From NCBI GenBank assembly GCA_946538975.1, contig CAMNHF010000007.1, positions 1 through 43,992 of the forward strand: a stretch of DNA of 43,992 bases, written 5' to 3'. Positions 22,008-41,991 of the stretch are shown one piece after another (the first letter of the stretch is position 1; each line of letters opens with the position of its first letter). The DNA is from an uncultured Clostridia bacterium (lineage in GTDB: Bacteria > Bacillota > Clostridia > Christensenellales > Aristaeellaceae). The notes under the pieces were generated by a model. The model saw only the letters and a list, made by a program, of their open reading frames with translations, made no database searches and was not told the DNA's origin. A program made the position numbers and the translations under genes.

Positions 22008-22014
22008 ATGGCTG

Positions 22015-22260
22015 CAAGCGTTGATGGGGACAAGTAGCGCGGCGAGACCCTGACAGAGAGCGCCCGGGTGGTGGAAGGGCGCAGGGACGCGGCGTGAATA
22101 CACCCCGGAGCTGTCCTCCGAACCGGCACGGCCGCAGTAGGCGGGACCGGGTGCGCCCGATACAGCGCAGGCGAGGGATGCTGCGGCATCCGAAGCAGAG
22201 GTGGTACCACGATTCGCTCCATCGTCCTCTGTTCCCCATGCGGGAACGGGGGCGATTTTC
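22015..22260 (+). promoter_or_regulatory. Tyrosine-specific T-box leader
   Basis: GACAAGTAGC stem I, CAGAGAG, specifier TAC (22099-22101) in GAATACAC, T-box AGCAGAGGTGGTACCACG (22194-22211) with TGGT fitting discriminator A, terminator CGTCCTCTGTTCCCC...GGGAACGGGGGCGATTTT. Confidence 0.93.
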
Positions 22261-22320: not shown

Positions 22321-23547
22321 ATGGGAATCTATGAGGAACTGCAGGCCCGCGGGCTGATTGCCCAGGTGACCGACGAGAAGGAGATCCGCGAGCTGATCAA
22401 TGGCGGCGGCGCGCGCTTCTACATCGGCTTCGACCCCACGGCGGATTCCCTGCACGTGGGCCACTTCATGGCGCTGTGCCTGATGAAGCGGCTGCAGATG
22501 GCGGGCAACAAGCCCGTGGTGCTGCTGGGCGGCGGCACCGGCTACATCGGCGACCCCACCGGCCGCACCGACATGCGCGCGATGATGACCCCCGAGACCA
22601 TCGAGCACAACTGCGAGTGCTTCAAGAAGCAGATCAGCCGCTTCATCGAGTTCGGCGAGGACAAGGCCATCGCGGTCAACAACGCGGACTGGCTGCTGAA
22701 GCTGAACTATGTGGAGCTGCTGCGCGAGGTCGGCCCGCACTTCTCCGTCAACAATATGCTGCGCGCCGAGTGCTACAAGCAGCGGATGGAGCGCGGCCTG
22801 TCCTTCCTGGAATTCAACTACATGATCATGCAGAGCTACGACTTCCTCTACCTGCATGAGCACTACGGCGTCAACATGCAGTTCGGCGGCGACGACCAGT
22901 GGAGCAACATGCTGGGCGGCACCGAGCTGATCCGCCGCAAGCTGGGCCACGACGCCTTCGCCATGACCATCACCCTGCTGCTCAACAGCGAGGGCAAGAA
23001 GATGGGCAAGACGCAGAAGGGCGCGCTCTGGCTGGATCCGGAGAAGACTTCCCCCTTCGAGTTCTACCAGTACTGGCGGAACATCGACGACGCCGACGTG
23101 ATGAACTGCCTCCGCATGCTGACCTTCCTCCCGCTGGAGGAGATCGAGGAGATGGAGCACTGGGACGGCAGCCGCATCAACGAGAAGAAGCAGATCCTGG
23201 CCTGGCAGCTGACCGCGCTGGTGCACGGCGAGGCGGAGGCCGACAAGGCCCGCGATGTCAGCGCGTCGCTGTTCTCCGGCGCCGGCCATGACGAGAACAT
23301 GCCCTCCACCACCCTCTCCGCCGACGAGGTGCCCGAGGGCGGCATCGAGCTGCTGAGCCTGATGGTGCGCTGCGGCCTGACCGCCAGCCGCTCCGAGGCC
23401 CGCCGCCTCGTGCAGCAGGGCGGCGTCGCCCTGAACGGCGAGAAGGTCACGGACATCGCCGCGGTCTGCCAGGCGGATCAGCTCCGCGAGGGCCTCGTCA
23501 TCCGCAAGGGCAAGAAAATCTTCCACAAGGCGCTGCTGGGGGAATAA
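22321..23547 (+). CDS. tyrS: Tyrosyl-tRNA synthetase
   Basis: FYIGFDPTADSLHVGHFMAL, GGDDQWSNMLGG, KMGKT, C-terminal S4 domain; T-box upstream. Confidence 0.97.
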   Translation: MGIYEELQARGLIAQVTDEKEIRELINGGGARFYIGFDPTADSLHVGHFMALCLMKRLQMAGNKPVVLLGGGTGYIGDPTGRTDMRAMMTPETIEHNCECFKKQISRFIEFGEDKAIAVNNADWLLKLNYVELLREVGPHFSVNNMLRAECYKQRMERGLSFLEFNYMIMQSYDFLYLHEHYGVNMQFGGDDQWSNMLGGTELIRRKLGHDAFAMTITLLLNSEGKKMGKTQKGALWLDPEKTSPFEFYQYWRNIDDADVMNCLRMLTFLPLEEIEEMEHWDGSRINEKKQILAWQLTALVHGEAEADKARDVSASLFSGAGHDENMPSTTLSADEVPEGGIELLSLMVRCGLTASRSEARRLVQQGGVALNGEKVTDIAAVCQADQLREGLVIRKGKKIFHKALLGE

Positions 23548-23610
23548 GATCCTGTATCCATAACCCGGAAACAGCCGCAAAACCAATCCGAACGGCAGCC
23601 CGGACTGTGT

Positions 23611-23720
23611 TTGGTCCAAACCGCAAACAGGCTGTGCGTCAGCGTGCCTTCATGGCGTCGCCGGCTCACAGCCTGTTTTGTTATCCGGGGTTTTCGTGTG
23701 CACTGGTTCGCGCTGCCGGC
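23611..23720 (+). repeat. Family B 110-nt structured element, copy 1
   Basis: Aligns without gaps to the minus strand of 30297-30406 (about 91/110 by hand); hairpin CAAACAGGCTGTG...CACAGCCTGTTT. Confidence 0.88.
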
Positions 23721-23797
23721 CGCCGCCGCAATTGCAGGCCGGCTTCCTCTGTCGGCTTCCTCTGTCAATGAAGAAACGAAGGCTGGCCGTGCCGTGA

Positions 23798-24550
23798 TTA
23801 TTCTGCATACGCCAATTGCAGCACAGGTTCGTTCTCGTACAGAGGCTGAATAATGATTCTGCCCTGTGTATCCCCGATTCCAAATAAATTGTCCTCAAGC
23901 GAGAGAATCACCAGATATCCGGCCTCGTTCGGCGTCGAAAAAGGAGAGATGCCGTCAGGGAATGCGACGGATTCCCCCCTTTCATCGATCAGCAGGTATT
24001 CCTCATATACGTCATACCATTCCATATCGTCATCGTAAAACGCTTTGACCACAATCGCATAGCCATTCCGGAAATCCTCATAGATACCGTCATATTGGCA
24101 TGGAATCACCGTTTCCCCCGAGGTACGGTCGCAGAATCCCCATTGTTCATCCTCGCAGACCGCAACCAGTTTTGCTTCATTGTCTGTGAAAAACGAGATG
24201 GATTCAAATCTCGGTTCGCAAAAACAGCGGCTCTGTTTATCGAAGAACCCATACAAATTGTGATCACCCATATCGCGCAGCACGATGACGAGGTCCGCCC
24301 GATCCTCATAATCGTCCGAACAATCCAGCAGAATCCAGTCGTTTTCCAGGAGCTTGTTTCCGTTCTCATCCAGGATGTTGCCGAACACATAGCCGAGGTA
24401 GTCGCCGTCCTCATTGTCATAATACGGCTCCCCGATTACAGAGAGCCCGGTGACGGGTTTCGCATCCATATCTTCCGCAGACGCATATGCAGCTGCACTG
24501 ACACACATCACAATGCACATCAGTAATGCGAAGATTTGCTTTTTCATCAT
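23798..24550 (-). CDS. Exported WG-repeat-like protein
   Basis: Signal peptide MMMKKQIFALLMCIVMCVSAAAYASA; repeated W/YGFxDxxxx...I motifs; GGAGG upstream. Confidence 0.75.
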   Translation of the reverse strand: MMKKQIFALLMCIVMCVSAAAYASAEDMDAKPVTGLSVIGEPYYDNEDGDYLGYVFGNILDENGNKLLENDWILLDCSDDYEDRADLVIVLRDMGDHNLYGFFDKQSRCFCEPRFESISFFTDNEAKLVAVCEDEQWGFCDRTSGETVIPCQYDGIYEDFRNGYAIVVKAFYDDDMEWYDVYEEYLLIDERGESVAFPDGISPFSTPNEAGYLVILSLEDNLFGIGDTQGRIIIQPLYENEPVLQLAYAE

Positions 24551-24583
24551 CACAATTTCCTCCCTGTCATCTGGTGAGCACAG

Positions 24584-24680
24584 GTATCAATCTGTCCCGC
24601 CGCGCCGCACCTTTGTCCTGCGCGCTCATCCGCTTTCATCATACTCCGTTTCCATGCTCCGGTCAAGCAGGTGATCCCGC
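24584..24680 (-). promoter_or_regulatory. Shared cassette promoter/leader, copy 1 (TTGACC-17-TATGAT)
   Basis: 97 nt, about 81% identical by hand to 28865-28963; -35 at 24661-24666 and -10 at 24639-24644 on minus strand. Confidence 0.85.
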
Positions 24681-24849
24681 AGCCGGTCGGACTGCACCCA
24701 CGCCCGCGCGTTCCCAAGACCTCGCGGCGGAGGCGCGATTTTTGCATGGTTCGTTTACGGCTTCGCCACAGATGGATCGCCGGCTGAACGGGCGAACAAA
24801 AAGCGCGTGGAAGCGCATCCCATCGCTTCCCCGCTCTTTTTCGCTTTCC

Positions 24850-25338
24850 TTATTCCGCCTCCCGGCTGAAGCTGATCCACTGGTCCACCTCGTCCGGGAG
24901 GGGCGGCTCGAAGCGGCTGAGACACTTCTGCAGCAGGCCCTCGTCCACGAAGTAGACGTCCGCGCCGCCGGCGGCATTGCGCTTCTCGGCGTTGCGGCGA
25001 ATCTGCCCGATCGGCGTGTCCAGGTACCACCAGCGGAAGGGGATGCCCGCGCCGCGCAGCGTCTCCGAGACCTCGCGCCGGTTCTGCTGCGACCAGAAGC
25101 CCCAGTCCAGCACCACGTTTGCGCCGGCCCGGGCGATCTCCACGGCCTTGCGCAGCAGCAGGGCGTTGACAGCCCGGGAGAATTCGTCGAAGCGGTCCGA
25201 GGACAGGGGATCCGGCCACAGGCGCGTGAACTCATCGGTGGAGAGGATCACCGCGTTCTCCTCCCGTGCCAGACGGCGGGCCAGCGTCGACTTGCCGCTG
25301 CAGATCATGCCGCAGAGGCATTCAATCCGTGCTTCCAT
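24850..25338 (-). CDS. P-loop kinase (AAA_33-like)
   Basis: CLCGMICSGKSTLARRLA Walker A, STDEF, NVVLDWGFWSQQNR; overlaps the end of the caspase-like gene. Confidence 0.75.
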   Translation of the reverse strand: MEARIECLCGMICSGKSTLARRLAREENAVILSTDEFTRLWPDPLSSDRFDEFSRAVNALLLRKAVEIARAGANVVLDWGFWSQQNRREVSETLRGAGIPFRWWYLDTPIGQIRRNAEKRNAAGGADVYFVDEGLLQKCLSRFEPPLPDEVDQWISFSREAE

Positions 25339-26860
25339 CGTGCTCCTCCTCCCCGTTCCGCAGCAGAATCGGCGCGGACCAGGCCTCGTAGCGGACGCCG
25401 CCGATCTCGGTGCGCGCGTGCAGCCGGTATTCGCCTGCCGGGGCCATCGTCCCGTCCGCCAGGCGGCCGTTCCAGACCACGGTGGTGGCGGTGGGATCCT
25501 GCTGCTCCGGCCGGCTGGGTTCATCGGTCATCAGACGGCGGACCACGGCGCCTTCCGCGTCCTCCACGGTCACGGTCAGGGCGCAGGGCAGGCTGTGGGC
25601 GACGGCGGCGACGGCCTCCCCGCCCCGGTCGGGCGTAAACTCCGCGGCGGCGGTGATGGCCAGCTCCGGATCCCCCTCGCTGGCCGGCACGCACACCACG
25701 CAGGAGGCCGCGATGGCCACCTCGCCCCCGTCCAGCGTCAGCACCTGCACCAGGGCATAGCCGGAGGGCGGATCCTCGGCCTCGCCGGGCCGGAGCACGA
25801 TCACGCGATCGCGAAGGCCCGGGCTCAGCAGGCCGGGGGTGTCGCCCCACGCGCCGAAGCGCTCCTCATCGTCGAACTGCACGGCGGCGTGGTCGAAATC
25901 CCAGCGCCCGCCCCGCTGCAGCACCACCTGGTAGCCCACGCGCACGGGCCGCGTGACCGTGAAGCTCAGCGCCAGGCCCGCGTCCTCGGCGGTGAGCAGA
26001 TTGCCCTCAAAGTGCAGCCCGCGCAGGGCATCGCCGCGCTCACCGCCGGCGGCGGGGCTGCAGCGGAACACGGGGAAGTCGTCCTCCTCCGGGTAGGTCT
26101 GCACGGTGGAGGCCCCGTGCTGCTGGCGGAGGAAGCGCTTCAGCTCGCTGAGCGTGATCTCCCCGTCGCCGTTGGTGTCCGCGGCGCGGCCATTGCCGGC
26201 GGAAAGCCCGCGCTGCAGTGCGCCGGAAAAGTAGCCCGCGCCGTTCAGCCGCGTCTGCGTGCCCTCGTAGCCGGACCAGAACCAGCTCTCCTCCGCGCCG
26301 CCGGAGGAGCAGATCACCTTGTAATCGGGCCCGGCGAAGAGGTTGTCGAAGGGCGCCGGAACGCCCTTGCCGATCATCGCGCCGGAATGGCAGGCGTCGA
26401 TCAGCAGCACCTTCACACCGGGCACGCGGTCGAGCATCTCCCGGAGCTGCGCCGCGGTGAGGCCCTCCTCATGCGTGCCGTCGGAGAGCAGCAGCGTCAT
26501 GGCGGCGTTGTCGTCGCCCGGGCTCCACCGGCCGTGGGTGCTGATGTAGAAATAGCTGACATCCTCCGCCCGCGCGCCGCGGAAGGCCTCCGTGATCAGC
26601 GCGTCCAGCTCCGCCGCGCCGGAGACGCCCTCCGGCCGCAGGATGAGGCTGGCCGGCTCCTCGCGTCCCTCCCGGAGCACGGCGGCCATCTGCAGCACAT
26701 TGTTCTGGGAGGAGGGGGCGGTGTCCTCCTCGGTGAGGAAGAGGTCGCAGCCGATCAGCAGGGCCCGGCTGACCCCGTCCGTGCGCGCCGCCGCGGGCCA
26801 CAGCAGCACCGCCATCAGCAGCGCCAGCATGAGATCGCGCACGCCTCTCCCTCCTTTCAT
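25322..26860 (-). CDS. Exported caspase-like peptidase with EF-hand loop and FlgD-like Ig C-terminus
   Basis: Signal peptide; YFYISTHG and VLLIDACHSG dyad; DTNGDGEITLSEL; TTVVWNGRLADGTMAPAGEYRLHA. Confidence 0.82.
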   Translation of the reverse strand: MKGGRGVRDLMLALLMAVLLWPAAARTDGVSRALLIGCDLFLTEEDTAPSSQNNVLQMAAVLREGREEPASLILRPEGVSGAAELDALITEAFRGARAEDVSYFYISTHGRWSPGDDNAAMTLLLSDGTHEEGLTAAQLREMLDRVPGVKVLLIDACHSGAMIGKGVPAPFDNLFAGPDYKVICSSGGAEESWFWSGYEGTQTRLNGAGYFSGALQRGLSAGNGRAADTNGDGEITLSELKRFLRQQHGASTVQTYPEEDDFPVFRCSPAAGGERGDALRGLHFEGNLLTAEDAGLALSFTVTRPVRVGYQVVLQRGGRWDFDHAAVQFDDEERFGAWGDTPGLLSPGLRDRVIVLRPGEAEDPPSGYALVQVLTLDGGEVAIAASCVVCVPASEGDPELAITAAAEFTPDRGGEAVAAVAHSLPCALTVTVEDAEGAVVRRLMTDEPSRPEQQDPTATTVVWNGRLADGTMAPAGEYRLHARTEIGGVRYEAWSAPILLRNGEEEHDGSTD

Positions 26861-26970
26861 CCCGGCATTCCGGCTCTCCGGCCGTGAAAGCGCATGAAAA
26901 GAGTATACGGCTTTCCGCCCGGTTCGTCAACCGAAGGGGCGAACGCGCGGCGGAGGGTACGGCTCAGCTT

Positions 26971-27062
26971 CCGGGGGAAGGAAACCCTTTTCGAGGCCGA
27001 AAAGGGCTTTCCTTCCCCCGGACCCCCATCTTTCCCCAAAGGCCTTTTTTCTTTGGGGAAGG
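26971..27062 (+). repeat. Family A hairpin repeat, copy 2
   Basis: 51-nt hairpin 26971-27021 differs from copy 1 by one loop base; tail GGACCCCCATCTTTCCCCAAAGGCC. Confidence 0.87.
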
Positions 27063-27362
27063 AGTTTTCCCGGCCTTGCGGATGCGCTCCCGACCCTCGC
27101 AGACCCATCAGGTCCGGCTGCGCATGCAGACCGTGCAAAAATCCCATTTTCCCAAAGGAAGGCCTTTAAGGAAGGATAGCCGCTTCGCAGTATCCTCCAT
27201 GAAATGCGTGTCTTGCCCTGCGTCCGCCGTCTGTGAGCGGCGGGTGAATTTCGTGAATAGTCTGTAACATTTTGGCGGGAAAGGTTGCGCGGGGCCGGAA
27301 AACATGGCATAATACGCTTGTTCACCCGCGGCGGAAGCGGGTCCGGAAAGGAAGACGACACA

Positions 27363-28751
27363 ATGATGAAGAGATGGATCGCCCTGCTGCTGGCGGCGCT
27401 GCTGCTGGCCTCGACGGCCGCGCTGGCCGAGACGCCCGCGCAGGATGTGGTGATGGCCACCGTCAACGGGCATGAGATCATGGCCTCCGCCGTGGTCAGC
27501 ACCTACGAGAATGTGATCACCTATTACACCCGCCAGGGCTACGACATGACCACCGAGGAGAACATGCAGGCCGCGCGGTGGATCGCCCTGCGCTCCGCGG
27601 TGCAGGAGGAGGTCATCGCCCAGAAGGCCGTCGAGCTCGGGCTGGACAAGGTGAGCGATGAGGACATGGCCCGCCTGACCGCCGAGAACGACCAGATGTG
27701 GGAGGACGCCATCAAGGCCTATGTCGATGCGCACGTGGGCGAGAACGCCACCGAGGAGGACATCAACGCCGCCCGGACCGAGGCCATCGCCTACTACGAG
27801 AGCGCCGGCTACACCATGGACGGCACCCTGCAGGAGAGCGTCACCGCCTTCATCAGCGAGCGCGTGCAGGCCTCCCTGGTGGAGGAGGCGGTCGTCACCG
27901 ATGAGGACATTGCCGCCCTGTTCAACAGCTACGTGGAGGACGACAAGTCCTACTACGAGGGCAATGTGTTCATGTATGAATACATGACCAACTACTACGG
28001 CCAGCAGAGCTACTACATGCCCACCGGCTACCGCGGCGTCACCCACATCCTGCTGAAGGTGGACGAGGACCTGCTCCACACCTATGACGAGCTGGCCGAC
28101 GCCTATGCCGCCCAGCAGGAGGGCACGGCCGCCGATGGCACCGAGAACACCGAAGCCACCAGCACCGACGTGGCGCCCGTGGTCACCGAGGAGGAAGTCG
28201 CCGCCGCCCGGGCCGCGGTCATTGCCTCCGTGCAGCCCACCATTGACGAGATCATGGCGAAGTTCAACGCCGGCACGCCCTTCGCGGAGCTGATCGCGGA
28301 ATACGGCACCGATCCGGGCATGCAGAGCGAGCCTTACAAGAGCGAGGGCTACGCCGTGCACGCGGACAGCATCGTGTGGGATCCCGCCTTCATCGAGGCT
28401 GCCATGTCCATCCCCGAGGTGGGCGGCGTCAGCGAGCCCGCTGTGGGCAGCTACGGCGTGCACATCGTCTACTACCTGCGCGACATCCCCGGCGGCCCGG
28501 TGGAGCTGACGGAGGAGATGCAGAACGAGCTGCGCGAAACCCTGATGGCCGAGAAGGAGAACGAGCTGTTCAACGCCGCGATGGCGCAGCTGCTGGGTGA
28601 GGCCGAGATCGTCTACACCGAGTACGCCAACGACTGGCGCGAGCCCGAGGAGACCGAAGAGGCCGCGGAGGAGACTGTGGAAGAAACCACTGAGACCATC
28701 GAAGCCGTCGAGGAGACCGTGGAAGAGACCGCGGAGGAACCCGCCGAGTAA
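27363..28751 (+). CDS. Exported peptidylprolyl isomerase (PrsA/SurA-like)
   Basis: Signal peptide; SurA-N-like VATVNGHEI region; parvulin core GVTHILLKVDED...FAELIAEYGTDPG...VGSYGVHIVYY; Glu/Thr-rich tail. Confidence 0.85.
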   Translation: MMKRWIALLLAALLLASTAALAETPAQDVVMATVNGHEIMASAVVSTYENVITYYTRQGYDMTTEENMQAARWIALRSAVQEEVIAQKAVELGLDKVSDEDMARLTAENDQMWEDAIKAYVDAHVGENATEEDINAARTEAIAYYESAGYTMDGTLQESVTAFISERVQASLVEEAVVTDEDIAALFNSYVEDDKSYYEGNVFMYEYMTNYYGQQSYYMPTGYRGVTHILLKVDEDLLHTYDELADAYAAQQEGTAADGTENTEATSTDVAPVVTEEEVAAARAAVIASVQPTIDEIMAKFNAGTPFAELIAEYGTDPGMQSEPYKSEGYAVHADSIVWDPAFIEAAMSIPEVGGVSEPAVGSYGVHIVYYLRDIPGGPVELTEEMQNELRETLMAEKENELFNAAMAQLLGEAEIVYTEYANDWREPEETEEAAEETVEETTETIEAVEETVEETAEEPAE

Positions 28752-28759
28752 GGGCGATT

Positions 28760-28799
28760 CGAGCCGGAGAGCGCAGCAGATGCCTCTCCGGTTTTGCTT
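28760..28799 (+). terminator. PPIase terminator
   Basis: CCGGAGAG...CTCTCCGGTTTTGCTTT. Confidence 0.7.
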
Positions 28800-28864
28800 T
28801 GCCTTTCTGCCGGCCCTGCCGGAAAGACGGAGCATCCTGCATTGCGCGCACGGCTCACAGGCCC

Positions 28865-28963
28865 GCGGGATCGTCTGCTTGACCGGATCGTGGAAACGGG
28901 GTATGATGAGAGCAGGAGGGCGTGCAGAACCAAGGCGCATGACGCGGCGGGACAGATGGATAC
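28865..28963 (+). promoter_or_regulatory. Shared cassette promoter/leader, copy 2 (TTGACC-17-TATGAT)
   Basis: -35 at 28879-28884, -10 at 28902-28907; conserved to GCGGCGGGACAGATGGATAC. Confidence 0.85.
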
Positions 28964-29118
28964 GGGGAAGGTTGATTGCGACCACCCCGCACTTCTTCTG
29001 CGACAGCGAGAACCGGCCTGCGATTGTGGTTTCTGGCGGCGAGCACTATGATCTGCTGCCTGCGTATGATACAGCAAAGGGGGTCAGCATCGATGAGTTC
29101 AACCGGGGTCTTGAATAA
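28939..29118 (+). CDS. Possible 59-aa protein at the head of cassette 2
   Basis: MTRRDRWIRGRLIATTPHFFCDSENRPAIVVSGGEHYDLLPAYDTAKGVSIDEFNRGLE; protein-like composition but N-terminus lies in the shared leader. Confidence 0.3.
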   Translation: MTRRDRWIRGRLIATTPHFFCDSENRPAIVVSGGEHYDLLPAYDTAKGVSIDEFNRGLE

Positions 29119-30202
29119 AGAAGAAATCAAGAATACGAGAACGCTTTCCTGCGCGTTTTGCATCTATGCCTTTGTTTTCGCCATTGCAGCGCACTTGCCG
29201 ACATATGGTTCCGATCCGAAACACACGAAGTATATTTGGCTTGCGTATTTCATCATGATCTGTTCAACGGTCATCAGCATTTTGCTTGTTCAGACGAAAC
29301 ACAAAAAAGTGTGTCTTGTTGTGCAGTCCATCATCTATGAATTGAATTTGGTTTACATTGCGCTGTCAATTGCAACAACAGAGTTGATTGCTTATGTGCC
29401 CCTTCAAATCCTGATTATTTTTCTATGGAGATACCTGATCCCTAACAAGAAGTCAGACAGGATAACCACTGCAGGAACGCTGTATATTCTCAATGCAGTA
29501 TTGCCTCTGTACATCGTTTTGCATCTGGTTCTTTCCAGTTTCGGAGTAGGCAGTCTGGTATTGCACTTCGTTTACAGACTTGCGTGCGTACTCTCCATTG
29601 CATTGTGCCTTTTCATTTCTATACAGTCTGCAGTGTCAGATGCCAAGACAGGTAACGATAAAAACATGCGCAGCGCATTTTATACCAGTTGTCTGCTTAC
29701 CGTTTGGGTACCAATCATCTTCAATTTGTCAACAAGGGTAATGTTCCGTGATAACATTGGCTTCAGCCTGCTGTCGTTCAGCGACGAGATCCTGAACGCT
29801 ATCCTGGCCATTGTGCTTTTCTGCCTGACGTGCAAAAACAAACATATCCAAATCCAACTGGCCATTGTCGTGGTATTCATCATATTTGAGTTTGGCAGGA
29901 TGAGCCTTCTGATGCGTGATGTGACAATTGGGAATCGAAACGCTTTGATCGATTTGCTGTGTCATATTCTGTTTGTAATCATTTGCTTTGTCATCGCGCT
30001 GCATGTTAAAGGTGAACTCTCAAGCCGAATGCTGCAAAGGGTATTGTCTGTGTCCGCGATCGCCTTTGTTGTCATCCTTTGCATCCAGCTGCTTTTGACA
30101 GGATTCCATGATGATGACTATAGCAGGTATCCTTTATTCTTTGCCTGTTTCTGTCTGAACGGACGCATCACCACTTTGCGACAACCGCGGAATGAAGGCT
30201 GA
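29093..30202 (+). CDS. Polytopic membrane protein, unknown function
   Basis: Many TM segments; visibly AT-richer than flanks; ATG 29093 about 10 nt after AAAGGGGG. Confidence 0.75.
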   Translation: MSSTGVLNKEEIKNTRTLSCAFCIYAFVFAIAAHLPTYGSDPKHTKYIWLAYFIMICSTVISILLVQTKHKKVCLVVQSIIYELNLVYIALSIATTELIAYVPLQILIIFLWRYLIPNKKSDRITTAGTLYILNAVLPLYIVLHLVLSSFGVGSLVLHFVYRLACVLSIALCLFISIQSAVSDAKTGNDKNMRSAFYTSCLLTVWVPIIFNLSTRVMFRDNIGFSLLSFSDEILNAILAIVLFCLTCKNKHIQIQLAIVVVFIIFEFGRMSLLMRDVTIGNRNALIDLLCHILFVIICFVIALHVKGELSSRMLQRVLSVSAIAFVVILCIQLLLTGFHDDDYSRYPLFFACFCLNGRITTLRQPRNEG

Positions 30203-30296
30203 AACGGTTATCGTTCTGCACCTGGACAGAGTCAGGTATGGCGGTTGAGCGCCGTTGCCAGCTGTGTGCAGCTTCCCGACGGCACAAGGCACTGCA

Positions 30297-30406
30297 GCCG
30301 GCTAAGCGAAGCGGTGCACACGAAAACCCAAAACGATAAAACGGGCCGTGAGCCGGCGACGCCATGACGGCGCGCTGACGCACAGCCCGTTTGCAGTTGG
30401 GGCCAA
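30297..30406 (-). repeat. Family B 110-nt structured element, copy 2
   Basis: Ungapped match to 23611-23720 in the opposite orientation. Confidence 0.88.
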
Positions 30407-30478
30407 TTCCGCTGTGAAGATGCGGTTTTGATTGTGATGGGGTCTAAGCCGTCCGGGGGAGCGGCTCTCCGGGCAGCC

Positions 30479-41909: not shown

Positions 41910-41991
41910 GGGGGAAGGAAACCTTTTTCCGGGCGGAAAAAGGCTTCCCTTCCCCCGGACCCCTATTTTTCTAAAAAGGCTTTTCTGCGGG
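41910..41991 (+). repeat. Family A hairpin repeat, copy 6
   Basis: GGGGGAAGGAAACCTTTTTCCG/CGGAAAAAGGCTTCCCTTCCCCC then GGACCCCTATTTTTCTAAAAAGGCTTTT. Confidence 0.85.

Follow-up and report, generated by a model that had tools for sequence, protein, structure and literature searches.

Gene units with common ends and unrelated cargo in an uncultured rumen-type Clostridia bacterium: a candidate family of small non-autonomous mobile elements

Background

Transporons are passenger-carrying insertion elements without a transposase. A mobile insertion cassette (MIC), MIC231 of Bacillus cereus, is described in the account of Chen et al. (1999, cited in PMC6542083) as passenger genes lying between insertion-sequence ends in place of the transposase, and REP elements are known targets of insertion sequences (PMC1525189). 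Here, we analysed a window of 43,992 nucleotides (64% GC; contig CAMNHF010000007.1, here C7, of assembly GCA_946538975.1) from the 2.9-Mb, 214-contig genome of an uncultured Clostridia bacterium, which is a rumen-type gut bacterium. An earlier, sequence-only reading of this window had drawn attention to two loci in which a common 5′ leader and a common 3′ block surround unrelated genes.

These loci resemble mobile insertion cassettes and transporons in being small, in having common ends with passengers in the middle, in lacking a transposase, and in being dispersed within one genome. They differ from mobile insertion cassettes in that their ends match no identifiable insertion-sequence family and bear no clear terminal inverted repeats, and in that they have a predicted promoter at one end and a captured host-gene tail with an apparent terminator at the other.

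Results and discussion

Two units in the window

Both repeat pairs lie where they had been reported: the 5′ leaders (24584-24680 and 28865-28963) are 82% identical (E 2e-19), with TTGACC-17-TATGAT in each of them, and the 3′ repeats (23611-23723 and 30294-30406, 113 nt) are likewise 82% identical (E 2e-25). Protein comparison found no similarity between the two enclosed proteins, in agreement with that reading. The loci, here units A and B, consist of the following features.

Unit A
24584..24680, minus strand: leader (BLAST; four copies in the genome, with an abrupt start at GCGGGATC)
24680-24673, minus strand: left edge GCGGGATC, conserved
24666-24661, minus strand: -35 hexamer, TTGACC
24643-24638, minus strand: -10 hexamer, TATGAT
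23798..24550, minus strand: cargo gene, exported WG-repeat protein of 250 aa (PF14903, E 1.8e-16)
23682..23723, minus strand: degraded end of a BspA/FN3-type gene (alignment of eight copies)
23614..23689, minus strand: terminator-like hairpin (covariance model, 95.2 bits)
23554..23618, minus strand: right end (RE), ending in ...GGGTTATGGATAC, a few bases from the tyrS stop codon

Unit B
28865..28963, plus strand: leader with GCGGGATC edge (same basis as the unit A leader)
28879-28884, plus strand: -35 hexamer
28902-28907, plus strand: -10 hexamer
28972..29118, plus strand: open frame of 48 codons, overlapping the start of the membrane-protein gene (GC 56%)
29093..30202, plus strand: cargo gene, polytopic membrane protein of 369 aa, an ORFan
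30251..30328, plus strand: remnant, last codons of a BspA/FN3-type gene (69% identical to the C11 frame)
30328..30403, plus strand: terminator-like hairpin (covariance model, 93.7 bits)
30396..30450, plus strand: right end, strongly diverged (alignment; boundary approximate)

The composition of the cargo genes (WG-repeat gene, GC 49% and GC3 58%; membrane-protein gene, GC 44% and GC3 54%) departs from that of their neighbors (GC 65-72%, GC3 90-96%). No family match was obtained for the 48-codon frame of unit B, and relatives of the membrane protein were found neither in 308 genomes of its family nor in plasmids, viral contigs, or Pfam; its AlphaFold model (pLDDT 51) was too poor for use. In the same part of the window, a minus-strand gene with caspase-like/CHAT-like, EF-hand, and FlgD_ig matches (25322-26845) overlaps a gene for an AAA_33 (zeta-toxin-like) kinase (24850-25338), and a T-box leader (22012-22232; Rfam RF00230, 106.5 bits) stands just upstream of the tyrosyl-tRNA synthetase gene (22321-23547).

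A predicted promoter and a composite 3′ block

Homology begins sharply at GCGGGATC in all four leaders of the genome. The leader on contig C136 has diverged in the spacer and retains the left edge, both hexamers, and the hexamer spacing, and in the remaining copies 86% of positions up to and including the -10 hexamer are invariant versus 67% of the others, so that the leader fits a promoter. We predict that it carries a sigma-70-type promoter, which would be active in the cell.

The 3′ block had been taken for a 110-nt element; the repeat is there, but the full block extends to ~260 nt in its best copies and is a composite, made up in order of an FN3 coding tail, a stop, a hairpin, and a ~75-nt RE that terminates in GGTTTATGGATACCC and has the right edge GCnGGGTATCC. 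The tail derives from a BspA-type LRR/FN3 surface-protein gene, of which it keeps the final 10-60 codons, and encodes the C-terminus of the FN3 domain (...LTGLKPDTDYWFKVWSYVQLPDGTRYYGQQSEAVHTKTLK-stop), and alignment of eight copies places its cut at differing points among them. Large BspA-type LRR_5 + fn3 proteins that the same genome encodes intact end in homologous sequence, and because the intact genes have other 3′ flanks, one gene end appears to have been captured and multiplied. The element had also been described as antisense to the gene, which does not hold functionally, as the remnant FN3 frame is co-directed with the cargo gene and the hairpin is nearly symmetrical.

The hairpin is strong (fold z-score -4.7 for the C11 copy) and 96% of its pairing is kept, with a single compensatory change and with shuffles performing equally, so that a role as RNA is neither established nor dismissed by covariation. 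We read the hairpin as an intrinsic terminator, which would act as such in the cell, and the 3′ element as a whole has the look of a captured gene end with its terminator, not of a control RNA. No relevant Rfam family was matched at E up to 1 and covariation is almost nil. Of the two possibilities raised by the sequence-only reading, a regulon of accessory genes under shared control RNAs at both ends is left with the shared promoter as its backing; the mobile module fared better.

Copies and cargo across the genome

The two copies of each block seen in the window have further counterparts elsewhere in the source genome. The leader occurs four times, three copies being recovered by BLAST (C7 twice and C11) and a diverged fourth (C136) solely owing to the hairpin at that locus; the 3′ block has eight strong copies (C7 twice, both in the window, C11, C16, C25, C123, C127, and C144), and two degenerate hairpins occur on C136 and C2. 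The C2 hairpin (locus L146, 9203-9281, 48.3 bits) is intergenic and has neither leader nor FN3 tail. A weight matrix built from the four leaders returned no fifth in 0.67 Mb of fetched loci and a 395-kb genome sample, and hairpin matches at loci L084 and L143 were rejected as ordinary terminators. Other genomes of the genus and family yielded neither the leader nor the FN3-plus-hairpin combination, and the C11 unit was found in neither phages nor plasmids, its viral pattern matches being due to chance. In the sister species, tyrS and a SurA-like gene are present, but their neighbors differ and the neighborhoods are not syntenic.

Each of the four leaders precedes a co-oriented 3′ block by 0.6-1.5 kb, the diverged C136 leader lying 0.5 kb upstream of its hairpin, and for the first three leaders alone the probability of such an arrangement by chance is ~1e-8. 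The cargo of these four units is mutually unrelated by protein comparison, comprising, besides the two genes of the window, ORFs of 86 and 187 aa on C11 and a DUF3592-like protein on C136, the latter with a composition near the host's. Among the leaderless copies, C25 has two exported or membrane ORFs, C123 a membrane protein of 96 aa, and C127 an exported protein of 189 aa whose start codon lies ~15-20 nt from the left border. Most units have cargo of 39-49% GC, versus 64-70% in the host, and wherever orientation could be judged, cargo is co-oriented with the FN3 tail. No cargo matched a transposase in Pfam, nor in NCBIfam where this was scanned. Relatives of the C11 proteins were absent from plasmids and, for the 86-aa protein, also from viral contigs; a weak match to a C11 ORF in genome G001 was rejected as chance, and membrane cargo of C25 and of sister species G004 looks alike by eye, a similarity that is not significant. 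At C25 (locus L049), a remnant that by eye resembles the C-terminus of an IS66-type transposase lies between cargo and FN3 tail.

The proposal of a mobile module in which shared ends enclose interchangeable cargo is well supported: four leader-cargo-3′ block units differ in their cargo, further 3′ blocks adjoin other genes, and one copy has inserted into a REP-like repeat (below). A simple duplication with no further copies, which the sequence-only reading had named as the finding that would count against it, is contradicted by the extra copies with other cargo. The same survey bears on a possible, though somewhat unlikely, alternative, namely that the loci are debris of dispersed repeats, in which an old transposon end with the captured tail and terminator was copied, foreign genes settled beside it at intergenic sites prone to recombination, and the units never moved whole. 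Consistent with this are the five of nine clear 3′ blocks that have no leader, the hairpin of L146 that stands alone, the mobile remnants plain near C25 (IS66-like, by eye), and the varying points at which FN3 tails end, but debris would account poorly for four out of four leaders preceding a 3′ block in one orientation and for cargo running with the tail in every judgeable case.

A right end common to sister species, and apparent insertion into REP-like repeats

The RE is also present in two sister species, both sheep-omasum Clostridia MAGs (three times in G004, twice in G002). In G004 it forms the leader of a tnpV gene (PF14198) and adjoins a captured gene tail and low-GC genes. At two G004 loci (L068, 9162-9621; L070, 14996-15701), behind tnpV and its RE leader comes the 3′ tail of a neighboring gene, a gene-tail capture of the same kind as in the window genome. 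Judged by its sequence contexts, the RE is the end of a mobile element and delimits the inserted DNA. The units are like the tnpV transposon remnants of Clostridia, whose leader in the sister species equals the RE, and unlike them in holding cargo and FN3 tail in the place of tnpV. The RE was absent from tnpV genes elsewhere in the genus, and a 24-nt RE match in CAMVEX010000012, beginning where GC drops, was discarded, ~1 such match being expected by chance.

On C127, a REP-like repeat encloses the unit (left flank ...CCCCCATCTTTCC, right flank AAAGGCC.TTCTTTGGGGAAGG), and the two flanks, once joined, align along an intact REP; this restoration argues that the units were inserted. Right ends abut a REP half at C25, C123, C127, and C16, and the leader of C136 follows a REP at a distance of ~60 nt. 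The repeat occurs about once per 18 kb in the sampled genome; in the window, this palindromic intergenic sequence (GGGGGAAGGAAACCCTTTTCG...CCCCCATCTTTCCCC) is found at 26965-27050, 1876-1962, and 41910-41984. REP-like repeats are the apparent insertion target of the cassettes. With REP-targeting insertion sequences the units share the placement of at least one of them in a REP-like repeat and of several right ends against one, but they have no transposase, the REP-like family differs, and target specificity is putative. No transposase or recombinase tied to the ends was found.

It is against these observations that a second, distinctly unlikely alternative has to be set, in which a promoter-plus-terminator scaffold was duplicated to several loci as an expression site and homologous recombination with incoming DNA of matching ends replaced the middle, with no need for unit transposition. 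The ends (98 and ~110-260 nt) are sufficiently long to recombine, and conservation is highest in the promoter hexamers and the hairpin, yet such recombination leaves unexplained both the insertion of the C127 unit into a REP-like repeat and the RE common to the tnpV leaders of sister species.

Very improbable, in our view, is a third alternative, that the units are orphan toxin-immunity modules of a polymorphic toxin system and the leader a decayed piece of the toxin core. One leader frame reads LLDRIVETEYDESGRACRTK, which is YD-repeat-like and open in two of three copies, and the short C11 ORF ends just ahead of the second ORF, an arrangement known from toxin and immunity genes. However, one leader copy has a stop in this frame, changes counted by eye on the leader alignment have no third-position bias, the C136 leader keeps promoter elements alone, the YD-like peptide has no family match, and no toxin, immunity, or YD-repeat family was matched at all. 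Integron gene cassettes, in which the hairpin would serve as attC site, share with the units small ORFan cargo in promoter-poor ORFs followed by a conserved, imperfectly palindromic hairpin, but are hardly credible here, the units being solitary and dispersed rather than in an array, four having their own promoter, and attC core boxes being absent (an RYYYAAC...GTTRRRY pair brackets the hairpin in none of eight copies, on either strand).

A probable family of mobile gene units

Recurrence, co-orientation, the insertion of C127, and low-GC cargo together suggest that the cassette reading is mostly right, and we consider that the window loci probably belong to a family of small non-autonomous mobile gene units. 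Each unit would run from a GCGGGATC edge with its promoter, through one or more passenger genes and the captured BspA/FN3 tail with terminator hairpin, to the RE. Such units may disseminate by inserting at new sites, often next to or within intergenic REP-like repeats, with a recombinase presumably supplied in trans. The passenger would be replaced and the ends would persist, so that acquired low-GC genes would gain a promoter in front and a terminator behind; exchange might proceed by recombination between shared ends or through imprecise second ends.

The closest known kind is the mobile insertion cassette. Unrelated passengers lie between common ends in the four units that have both ends, and no transposase is found inside a unit; the left GCGGGATC and right GCnGGGTATCC have a similarity that is not significant in a simple test, and a target duplication (TAAA) is possible in C127 alone, with none seen in other copies. 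We therefore regard the units as a MIC-like variant rather than a proven member. That they constitute a new class, promoter-to-terminator gene-capture units of rumen Clostridia whose fixed ends provide the start and stop of transcription, whose cargo is swapped, and which a recombinase aims at intergenic REP-like repeats, so that foreign genes would be acquired and expressed in integron-like fashion without an integron, is an unlikely extension of this reading.

Conclusions

If these units move whole, they would explain how a poorly studied rumen lineage acquires single ORFan genes that are expressed at once, since each would arrive with a ready promoter and terminator and in safe intergenic repeats. 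If this is true, the GCGGGATC...leader, the hairpin, and the RE would together provide a handle with which to list recently acquired genes in such genomes.
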